In this document: one piece after another, positions 16,162 to 45,444 of the stretch
How the letters are laid out: the number at the start of each line of letters is the position of its first letter
How positions within the stretch are numbered: the stretch's first letter is position 1
Assembly: GCA_017532425.1 (NCBI GenBank)
Contig: JAFXJH010000029.1
Coordinates: 1 to 55,737 of the forward strand
Source of the DNA: Clostridia bacterium
GTDB lineage: Bacteria > Bacillota > Clostridia > Oscillospirales > CAG-272
Length of the DNA: 55,737 nucleotides
Direction of reading: 5' to 3'
Translations under genes and position numbers: made by a program
The notes under the pieces: generated by a model
Told to the model about the DNA's origin: nothing
The model's input: only the letters and a program-made list of their open reading frames with translations
Database searches by the model: none

Positions 16162-16245
16162 GCCGGTGTGGCGAAATTGGCAGACGCAAGGGACTTAAAA
16201 TCCCTCGGTGGCAACACCGTACCGGTTCGAGCCCGGTCACCGGCA
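16162..16245 (+). tRNA. tRNA-Leu (anticodon UAA)
   Basis: An 84-base class II tRNA. The acceptor arms GCCGGTG and CACCGGC pair fully, with a discriminator A at 16245 and no encoded CCA. The anticodon stem GGGAC/..TCCC with loop CTTAAAA gives UAA. The long variable arm (CGGTGGCAACACCG) and the T-loop GGTTCGAGCCC are as expected for leucine. It has its own promoter and terminator. Confidence 0.96.
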
Positions 16246-43161: not shown

Positions 43162-43190
43162 ATTATATCACGAAAAAACACTATATTCAA
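43162..43190 (-). promoter_or_regulatory. argS-yebC promoter
   Basis: On the minus strand: TTGAAT (43185-43190), a 17-base spacer, TATAAT preceded by TGA (43162-43167). No T-box leader is possible in the short space to the start codon. Confidence 0.85.
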
Positions 43191-43313: not shown

Positions 43314-43342
43314 TTGACAAAAGAGAAATGATACTGTATAAT
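43314..43342 (+). promoter_or_regulatory. Promoter of the CNNM transporter leader
   Basis: TTGACA (43314-43319), a 17-base spacer, TATAAT (43337-43342): perfect consensus. It lies about 235 bases upstream of the start codon, which implies a long leader. Confidence 0.92.
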
Positions 43343-43347
43343 ACAAC

Positions 43348-43479
43348 TTGTATGCGAAAAAAGGACATCGCAGAATATTTGCCGAAAGGAAAATCCGGAG
43401 ACAGCTATGGACGAAGGTGGCGGGAACAACGGCGGTCGAATACCCCGATGTACCACTATTGAAATCTTGAATATATAAT
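43348..43479 (+). ncRNA. Structured leader RNA, candidate riboswitch of unrecognised class
   Basis: The leader between the promoter and an intrinsic terminator is G+C and purine rich and foldable. A closing stem pairs GGACATCG (43363-43370) with CGATGT-A-CC (43446-43454, one bulged A). Inside lie a CCG/CGG or GGA/TCC hairpin (43382-43398), a hairpin GCTAT/GTGGC (43404-43421) with loop GGACGAAG, and a GGG/CCC helix (43422-43424 with 43443-43445), a multi-branch form typical of an aptamer. I do not see the motifs I know for M-box, yybP-ykoY (manganese), NiCo, ydaO or cobalamin classes. The gene below encodes an ion transporter, so a metal or related ligand is likely (inference). Confidence 0.6.
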
Positions 43480-43535
43480 ATAGAAGGCGTGGTCTGTATA
43501 GATTTTTGTACAGGCTATGCCTTCTATGCTCTTTT
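43480..43535 (+). terminator. Intrinsic terminator inside the CNNM leader
   Basis: The arm 43480-43498 pairs with 43509-43527 over 19 base pairs including three G-U type pairs (outer ATAGAAGGC/GCCTTCTAT, inner CTGTA/TACAG), and TTTTT follows at 43531-43535. It stands 43 bases before the start codon, so it must be regulated for the gene to be expressed. Confidence 0.88.
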
Positions 43536-43577
43536 TGGACTTTAAACGGCAAAAATATCTTACGGAGGAAGGTAACT

Positions 43578-44945
43578 GTGGACAGTTATTTATGGACTTT
43601 ATTGCTCCAGTTTTTACTCATCGCACTTAACGCAATATTCGCAAGTGCAGAAACCGCTATCATCGGAATGAACGATAACCGAATAGCAAAGCTCGCCGAG
43701 GAAGGCGATAAGCGTGCTATCAAGCTCGCAAAGCTCACCGAGAAGCCCTCAAAGTTTCTTGCAACGATTCAGGTTGCAATAACTCTTGCGGGATTTTTGG
43801 GAAGTGCTTTTGCGGCAGATACATATTCGGGCGTTCTTGGCGCGTGGCTTTTCAGTATAGGAATACCGCTCAGCGAGGCTGTACTTGAAAAGATAGCTCT
43901 TATTCTTATCACGCTCCTGCTTTCCTATCTTACTATCGTTCTCGGCGAGCTTGTTCCGAAGCGTATAGCAATGAAAAATGCGGAAAAGCATGCACTTAAA
44001 ATGGCAGGATTTATAACAAATATTTCTGTTCTCTTCAAGCCGCTGGTATGGCTACTTACAGTTTCTACAAACGGCGTGCTCAGACTTTGCGGTATTGACC
44101 CTCACGCACAGGAGGAAGAGGTCAGCGAGGAAGACATACGTATAATGGTTGACGTCGGAAGCGAAAACGGTACTATCGACGTTGATGAAAAGGAATTTAT
44201 ACAGAACGTATTTGAATTTGACGATCTGACAGCAGGAGAGATCGCAACACACCGTACGGAGATATCACTTCTCTGGCTTGAGGAAGATGTCGATGAATGG
44301 AAAAAGACGATATATTCGACAAGACATACAAGATATCCGATATGCAGCGAAACAGTAGATAACGTTGTCGGAATACTCAACGCAAGAGATTATTTCAGAC
44401 TCGATACCGAAGATCGCGATGAAATTATGAAAAATGCGGTTAAGCCTGCATATTTCGTGCCCGAAACGGTAAAAGCGGACGTTCTCTTCAAAAACATGAA
44501 GAATAACCGTGTATCACTTGCAGTCGTTCTCGACGAATACGGCGGAATGACAGGTATCGTTACAATGAACGACCTTATAGGACAGCTCGTAGGAGATCTT
44601 CAGGACGAAGAGACCATTTCAGAGGAAAAGGAACTTCCCTCAATCGAAAAGCTTGAGGATGGACTCTGGAATATCAGAGGTAACGTTGCTCTTGAAGAAA
44701 TGGTAAGAGAGCTTGAAATAACACTTCCTACGGATGAATACGATACCTTTAGCGGAATGATATTTGACGCGCTCGAGTCTATTCCCGACGATGGAAGCAC
44801 GTTTGAGATCGAAACAAACGGTCTTTCGATAAGCGTTACGGAGGTTGTCGATCACCAGATAAAGAACGCCGTTGTAAGAGTTCTTGAAAAGGATGAGGAC
44901 GGCGAAGGTGATGATGACGGCAAGAAGACAGATGACGAGAACTGA
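43578..44945 (+). CDS. CNNM/HlyC-CorC family ion transporter
   Basis: A 455-residue membrane protein of the family linked to Mg2+/Co2+ or Na+-coupled ion export. The GTG at 43578 has GGAGGAAGG upstream; the open frame before it lies inside the leader terminator. Residues 1 to about 190 are the DUF21/CNNM membrane domain (LNAIFASAETAIIGMNDNRIAKLAEEG, then three more helices and GELVPKRIAMKNAE). A CBS pair follows (AGEIATHRTEISLLWLEEDVD, RYPICSETVDNVVGILNARDY, VSLAVVLDEYGGMTGIVTMNDLIGQLVGD), then a CorC/HlyC C-terminal domain (WNIRGNVALEEMVREL) and a polyacidic tail. Its leader RNA suggests transcription is attenuated by a ligand. Confidence 0.93.
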   Translation: MDSYLWTLLLQFLLIALNAIFASAETAIIGMNDNRIAKLAEEGDKRAIKLAKLTEKPSKFLATIQVAITLAGFLGSAFAADTYSGVLGAWLFSIGIPLSEAVLEKIALILITLLLSYLTIVLGELVPKRIAMKNAEKHALKMAGFITNISVLFKPLVWLLTVSTNGVLRLCGIDPHAQEEEVSEEDIRIMVDVGSENGTIDVDEKEFIQNVFEFDDLTAGEIATHRTEISLLWLEEDVDEWKKTIYSTRHTRYPICSETVDNVVGILNARDYFRLDTEDRDEIMKNAVKPAYFVPETVKADVLFKNMKNNRVSLAVVLDEYGGMTGIVTMNDLIGQLVGDLQDEETISEEKELPSIEKLEDGLWNIRGNVALEEMVRELEITLPTDEYDTFSGMIFDALESIPDDGSTFEIETNGLSISVTEVVDHQIKNAVVRVLEKDEDGEGDDDGKKTDDEN

Positions 44946-45054: not shown

Positions 45055-45444
45055 ATGGCATTTTGTAGAAATTGCGGCGCAGAGCTCAAAGATGAAGATC
45101 AGTTCTGCGCAAAATGCGGAACAAAGGTAAACGAAGAAGCTCCCGCAGAAACAGCTCCCGCAGCTATTGATATCGATATGACAAAGCTTTACGCGGTACT
45201 TGCATACGTGGGAATACTTTTCCTCATTCCCCTCCTTCTTTGTAAGGACTCCGAATTCGTTCGTTTCCACACAAATCAGGGAATCGTACTCTTCATCGCA
45301 GGCGTTATCTGCGCTATAGTTCCGATCATCGGCTGGATAGCATCTATCGGCGTTCTCGTACTTATGGTATTCGGTCTTATCAACGTTTCCAACGGCGATA
45401 TGAAGGAGCTTCCCGTTATCGGAAAGATCAAGATTCTCAAGTAA
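45055..45444 (+). CDS. Zinc-ribbon membrane protein (DUF4870-like)
   Basis: A 129-residue protein. Residues 4-21 form a zinc ribbon (CRNCGAEL...FCAKCG). After a short Ala/Pro/Glu linker come three hydrophobic segments: LYAVLAYVGILFLIPLLLC, then FHTNQGIVLFIAGVICAIVP and IGVLVLMVFGLI, with the FxxxHxxQG pattern typical of DUF4870-like membrane proteins. Function unknown. GAAAGGAAA is the ribosome site. Candidate -10 boxes (TATAAT near 44991 and 45016) lie in the 109-base gap after the CNNM gene, so it may have its own transcript. Confidence 0.85.
   Translation: MAFCRNCGAELKDEDQFCAKCGTKVNEEAPAETAPAAIDIDMTKLYAVLAYVGILFLIPLLLCKDSEFVRFHTNQGIVLFIAGVICAIVPIIGWIASIGVLVLMVFGLINVSNGDMKELPVIGKIKILK

Follow-up and report, generated by a model that had tools for sequence, protein, structure and literature searches.

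Comparative analysis of the leader before a Clostridia CNNM/CorC gene suggests ribosome-controlled attenuation by a short open reading frame, with Mg2+ as a possible signal

A CNNM/CorC-type membrane protein gene of a Clostridia bacterium is separated from its promoter by a leader that contains an intrinsic terminator, which raises the question of what decides whether transcription reaches the gene. The window analysed is the whole 55,737-nucleotide stretch of contig JAFXJH010000029.1, and the features of the locus are collected in the table. An original prediction, made from the DNA letters alone, placed a perfect consensus promoter 235 bases before the start codon, a 19-base-pair intrinsic terminator with a T-run, and a CNNM/CorC gene downstream, and all three are borne out. 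The last base of the promoter lies 236 nt 5' of the GTG start codon, promoters matching the consensus at 12/12 positions also stand 5' of the short open reading frame (ORF) in three congeners, and most of 55 leaders from the family have promoters scoring 10-12/12. The regulated protein matches Pfam CNNM (1.7e-50), CBS and CorC_HlyC, as well as the structure PDB 7m1t (E 2e-37). Its top NCBIfam model is PaeA, a polyamine exporter (227 bits, below the cut-off of 500), and the substrate of the CNNM protein is therefore not certain.

Several further features were noted around the gene and in its genome. A promoter-like site with an extended -10 (TTGAAT-17-TATAAT, 10/12) is located at 43162-43190 on the minus strand, before the divergent argS. 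Downstream of the CNNM gene, a small protein gene (45055-45444) encodes an N-terminal CxxC...CxxC zinc-ribbon-like start and hydrophobic segments, and the protein has no NCBIfam match. Two more CNNM genes lie in tandem in the genome (G000, contig C6, 24354-26248; L148 and L149), the first of which in transcription order begins MGSDSIPLW and is itself acidic, and no acidic leader ORF like that of the window was seen before either of them.

Table. Features of the CNNM leader and gene in the window
Feature	Position	Strand	Remark
Sigma-70 promoter TTGACA-17-TATAAT	43314..43342	+	12/12 consensus matches
Candidate Shine-Dalgarno GAAAGGA of leader ORF	43384..43390	+	16 nt before ATG
Second candidate Shine-Dalgarno GGAG of leader ORF	43397-43400	+	found only in the window and in G107
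Leader ORF, 23 codons and stop, MDEGGGNNGGRIPRCTTIEILNI	43407..43478	+	homologous in 4/4 genomes of the genus
Intrinsic terminator	43480..43536	+	19-bp stem 43480-43498/43509-43527, then T-rich GCTCTTTTT
Shine-Dalgarno GGAGG of CNNM gene	43564..43568	+	
CNNM/CorC-type membrane protein gene, GTG start	43578..44945	+	CBS pair and CorC_HlyC domain

The leader had been predicted to be a structured, attenuating riboswitch outside the known classes, with a closing stem (43363-43370/43446-43454) and a metal, nucleotide or osmotic ligand. When scanned with Rfam covariance models, M-box, yybP-ykoY, NiCo and ydaO included, the leader has no match at gathering score and only chance matches at E up to 10, so that no known family fits it, as predicted; the sole Rfam match in the window is a tRNA gene at 16162-16245. 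A scan of 20 related loci returned only a tRNA and a cobalamin riboswitch that lies close to CNNM in a relative from the class (L177, 332-512, minus strand) and is unrelated to the leader. The full leader folds more stably than all of 200 shuffles (z -4.6), but the part before the terminator (43349-43475) has no extra stability (z +0.25), and the high stability of the whole is therefore due to the terminator. The window does allow the predicted closing stem (8 pairs, one bulge), but this stem is not kept in three congeners: its inner pairs are broken in 1 to 3 of the four genus sequences, and no double-sided change was found in its pairs among these four leaders. Covariation of homologous leaders is confined to the terminator, with no other common stem in nine aligned leader groups or among the congeners. 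Given the missing Rfam match, the shuffle-level folding and the lack of congeneric or group covariation outside the terminator, the leader does not look like an aptamer riboswitch. What stands of the prediction is a conserved, unannotated transcription attenuator before the CNNM gene, for which a metal signal is plausible; a ligand-binding aptamer is not supported. A riboswitch for a metal, nucleotide or other ligand would have to contain an open frame within its aptamer by chance, with the ligand selecting between terminator and antiterminator, and is very improbable. Such a switch could account for the strong nucleotide conservation of ATGGACGAAGGTGGCGGGAA in four species, third codon positions included, for a codon-level bias to AGT and CGA, and for a variable 5' hairpin near the transcription start, but not for frame-specific conservation, swaps of the start codon and a frame that is open up to the terminator.

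The conserved block of the leader is itself an open reading frame, a feature that the original prediction overlooked. The leader precedes the orthologous CNNM gene in all four genomes of the genus, argS lies upstream in the opposite direction in 3 of 4 (the three read on that side), and the most conserved block among the four species is ATGGACGAAGGTGGCGGGAA. The leader peptides of the sister species are MDEGGGNNGGRIPRCTTIEILNIFYT, MDEGGGNKGNVARCTTVEILNI and MDEGGGKRETLGRSTTVYIVNI; the ORFs of the genus differ by one in-frame 3-nt indel and stop at the same place or within 3 codons. Substitutions between these near relatives are not wobble-biased, which counts against translation, and the exact peptide sequence is therefore not strictly kept. 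A covariance model of the genus leader (R1) gives confident matches in the genus only, and its weaker matches lie partly inside coding DNA, in CNNM itself and in a dapA-like gene, at the codons of VMDEYGG and VMDEVGG, and these pointed to the reading frame of the leader. A DNA pattern scan of 84,980 species found the same genus only, plus chance-like coding matches in a Bryobacteraceae genome, and the same kind of scan found no match in viral contigs. One record with a matching contig comes from roe deer colon.

Beyond the genus, upstream regions of CNNM orthologues were taken from the family, 95 in all, and read with a rule that takes a Shine-Dalgarno site and the next start codon and nothing else. 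This rule often yields acidic peptides 140-230 nt before the CNNM gene, such as MDDGGSCTTH, MDDGDSTDTTC, MGDGSSADGN, MNPGDSSDPDR, MTDPDSC and MDPLPRSC, and the family peptides MSSDTDGSYRST and MEHCDTDGIARST were found without it. The 55 leaders that were kept represent 24 genera, and some were picked with an acidic start in view, so that unselected tests weigh more. Comparable peptides occur in other families of the order (MDAGDSSPDPSRC, MDAGDSTPDPERN, MDVSNNDPDPGR and MDSDSSDNPDR) and of the class (MDDSPLPERS, MDDSPVPERS, VDDSPSPRS and MEDSTDGDNPR). CNNM genes of 24 genera in the family, and of further families and orders within the class, are thus preceded by short ORFs with a ribosome site and an acidic N-terminus, and several of these leaders show DPD, PLP and PR motifs. 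A subclass of the form [MV]D[PT][LI]PRSC, with CCNCGAAGTTGC, lies before distant CNNM genes (L139-L144, L146 and L061). No clear intrinsic terminator was found in this MDPLPRSC subclass, which is possibly under another mode of control, and a pattern built for it had no match in 291 genomes of the class. CNNM orthologues without an obvious leader ORF (L057, L059 and L060) themselves start MDGGS, MDPDS or MDPDGG. These starts recall the leader peptides and the destabilising N-terminus of CorC and may also reflect membrane topology; an origin of the leader ORF from the CNNM N-terminus was considered on account of them and is unproven.

ORFs that carry 3 or more acidic residues among codons 2-12 are present in 54 of the 149 upstream regions; the reverse strand has 0, and dinucleotide shuffles would give about 1.5. 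Per genus, codons 2-12 hold a mean of 2.6 acidic residues, compared with 0.65 in other short Shine-Dalgarno-led ORFs of the same loci, and the acidic fraction is 0.238 in frame versus 0.072 and 0.025 in the other two frames. Counted by frame, with the ORF frame first, GAC triplets number 94/0/3 and AGT triplets 67/6/1; the count for CGA is less clean because GACGAC puts CGA in another frame. ATG and GTG interchange as start codons among the leaders, and the frame-specific counts hold although the distance from start codon to CGA varies from 6 to 14 codons. In 28 of 32 leaders the ORF frame stays open as far as the terminator; of the two remaining frames, one is closed in 26 leaders and the other in 28. 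Most leaders carry AAAGGA 8-17 nt before the start codon, a spacing that is long (12-17 nt) in many of them. By sequence comparison, the conserved part of the leader looks like a translated short ORF. The peptide of the window has only two acidic residues, D2 and E3, with no Pro between them, and the strongest destabiliser-like motifs are found in relatives.

Codon choice in the leader ORFs is also unusual. CGA makes up 37 of 48 Arg codons (77%, versus 7-10% in background genes; 55 loci) and AGT 67 of 106 Ser codons (63%, versus 9-11%; 55 loci), and an excess of CGA, although weaker, is also present in other families (16/32). This preference suggests an extra constraint beyond peptide charge, and it is what attenuation by amino-acid or codon supply would draw on, in which a shortage of charged tRNA slows the ribosome at the rare Arg codon CGA or Ser codon AGT. 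However, there is usually one CGA and no run of a regulatory codon, and several leaders have no Arg. A ribosome stalled at CGA would moreover be too far away to block the terminator, and stalling would therefore turn the gene off. Neither of the hallmarks of trp/his-type attenuators, a run of regulatory codons and an antiterminator hairpin exclusive with the terminator, was found in the leaders, and a CNNM gene offers no biosynthetic logic, all of which makes control by codon supply unlikely.

The second conserved component is the terminator, which lies between promoter and gene start as in a transcription attenuator. In an alignment of 24 leaders, 88.8% of cells are paired, and compensatory (double-sided) changes occur in 11 of 15 terminator pairs, with 40 compensatory cells versus 12.6 in shuffles. 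Conservation across families of the class extends to the stem sequence (GGCATAGCCTG/CAGGCTATGCC) and exceeds the needs of a generic terminator or of pairing. Together with the codon bias, this conservation hints at a further layer, such as pausing at rare codons or the binding of a further partner. The covariance model built from the terminator has the CNNM leader as its single match in the window's own genome, finds CNNM leaders outside its training set, other families included, and has no match in 30 non-CNNM control loci. In a related genome, a plain bidirectional terminator after an unrelated long ORF (L211, 1500-1531) scores on the model, and the terminator model alone is therefore not proof of a leader.

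ORF and terminator are joined by a conserved geometry. The stop codon of the leader ORF is 1 nt before the stem in the window, and the short ORF either ends within about 8 nt of the 5' base of the stem, as here and in many genera, or runs through the stem, so that a conserved short ORF reaches the terminator as in ribosome-controlled attenuators. These distances were taken from clearly placed stems, and the few automatic placements that took a second hairpin (a G006-like genus) were re-read against a separate mapping. Peptide length and C-terminus are not conserved between groups, in contrast to the position of the stop codon relative to the stem. This is hard to reconcile with an ORF that encodes a small functional peptide, or with a hairpin that just ends a short transcript, the CNNM gene not being regulated by ORF translation in either case. 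Short ORFs with their own promoter and terminator do exist, but no second promoter-like site was found between the terminator and the CNNM start in the window, and this explanation is quite improbable.

Folding was performed with the ribosome footprint masked codon by codon in 17 leaders with a mapped stem. In free RNA the terminator has a probability of 0.77-0.99 in 16 of the 17 leaders (0.34 in G220), and termination is the default. The terminator is lost only when the ribosome has reached one of the last 1-5 codons or sits within the stem, and therefore it stays free after early drop-off and is blocked when the ORF is completed. An antiterminator formed by ACCAC of the ORF with GTGGT of the terminator is possible on paper but uncompetitive, the free terminator having a probability of 0.99, and no alternative or antiterminator hairpin shared among the leaders was found. 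Attenuation by a leader peptide is very probable as far as sequence can indicate. Under the proposed mechanism, transcription would yield the short ORF and then the terminator, whose stem starts one base past the stop codon. In free RNA the terminator would form and the CNNM gene would be off, whereas a ribosome at the last codons would cover the 5' side of the stem, no terminator would form against the T-tract, and RNA polymerase would read into CNNM.

The nature of the signal is suggested by the start of the peptide. Translating ribosomes are destabilised when a peptide begins with acidic and proline residues, an effect that is stronger at low Mg2+ and that drives the control of Mg2+ importers by MgtL and MgtQ in enterobacteria (PMC11282234; PMC8092293). 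The acidic, Gly, Ser and Pro start of the Clostridia peptides (MDEGGG here; MDAGDSSPDPSR, MDVSNNDPDPGR and MDDSPLPERS in relatives) would destabilise the translating ribosome as EPDP does in MgtL. Because of this resemblance to MgtL, with its drop-off at low Mg2+, the signal can be put down to Mg2+ with about even chances, the output being reversed. Low cytoplasmic Mg2+ would cause the ribosome to abort early, the terminator would win and the exporter would not be made; with ample Mg2+ the ORF would be completed and the exporter made. This reversed output would be a sensible direction for an exporter. An MgtL-type acidic/proline start is found in the group as a whole and is weak in the window, where it consists of D2-E3 only; no EttA effect is reported for DE or EE by itself in YFP (PMC11282234), which counts against the D2-E3 of the window.

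The same terminator logic could instead serve a nascent-chain or small-molecule sensor in which the peptide pauses the ribosome, or makes it drop off, in response not to Mg2+ but to polyamines, an antibiotic or translation stress in general. Such stress is read by other leader peptides, the PaeA model named above is that of a polyamine exporter, and a PRSC/YRST/GRST-type motif recurs with the nearly invariant CGA codon. However, the C-terminus varies between groups, unlike that of typical arrest peptides, and the acidic/proline start is the most general feature of the peptides and fits the known Mg2+ leaders, leaving such a sensor a real but minor possibility. Three steps of the main reading are inferred: translation of the ORF, its abortion as the event that is sensed, and Mg2+ as the signal. 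The whole statement, that the leader is an attenuator under ribosome control which turns CNNM on when leader translation is completed and takes Mg2+ as its signal, is given a probability of roughly 0.55. A broader proposal is made tentatively, at somewhat under even chances: a class-wide leader-peptide sensor of Clostridia would read Mg2+ via ribosome stability and control the CNNM Mg2+ exporter with a logic opposite to that of mgtL, as one element without an Rfam match, made up of the acidic/proline start, the nearly invariant CGA codon and the terminator with its conserved sequence.

No description of this leader element was found in the openly licensed literature, and Mg2+ sensing by leader peptides is, to our knowledge, known only from enterobacteria. 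If the proposal is right, a large group of Gram-positive gut bacteria would use the ribosome itself to sense Mg2+, turning an exporter on rather than an importer off. The element is compact and conserved, and the terminator model together with the ORF rule would allow its annotation in many genomes. The CNNM family includes MpfA. In S. aureus, MpfA is an Mg2+ exporter (PMC6711546). In Salmonella, CorC and MgpA rise in high Mg2+, the N-terminus of CorC is destabilising, and how the CorC-family exporters are regulated was described as unclear in 2025 (PMC12421838).

Among known systems, M-box, yybP-ykoY, NiCo and ydaO likewise occupy the leaders of ion transport genes and can have a terminator at their end, but the present leader lacks both a match to their covariance models and a conserved aptamer fold. 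mgtL of mgtA is likewise a short ORF with an acidic/proline start before an Mg2+ transport gene (PMC11282234), the DPD, PLP and PR motifs of several Clostridia leaders have a similar look, and the premature end of leader translation, which changes transcription elongation in mgtL, is proposed to do so here. However, mgtL has a Rho-dependent terminator where the present leader has an intrinsic one, completed translation turns mgtA off but is predicted to turn CNNM on, and the gene is of an exporter family in Clostridia; the likeness described is one of features. In mgtQ, before Salmonella mgtB, early acidic codons in a short ORF also abort translation and control an Mg2+ transporter (PMC8092293), but they act on mgtB translation via alternative stems at the ribosome site rather than on a transcription terminator. 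YoaL precedes mgpA (yoaE) of E. coli and Salmonella, a CorC-domain gene that, as stated above, rises in high Mg2+, and translation of this leader peptide supports MgpA expression; in contrast, YoaL overlaps its gene, its mechanism is unsettled, and the consulted portion of the source describes no intrinsic terminator between the two (PMC12421838). Ribosome-mediated attenuators of Firmicutes, such as that of bmrC/bmrD (PMC4191407), also let the position of the ribosome on a leader ORF decide whether transcription enters the gene; bmrC/bmrD, however, encode a multidrug ABC transporter, no competing antiterminator hairpin was found here, and in the folding model the stem appears to be blocked by direct covering by the ribosome.
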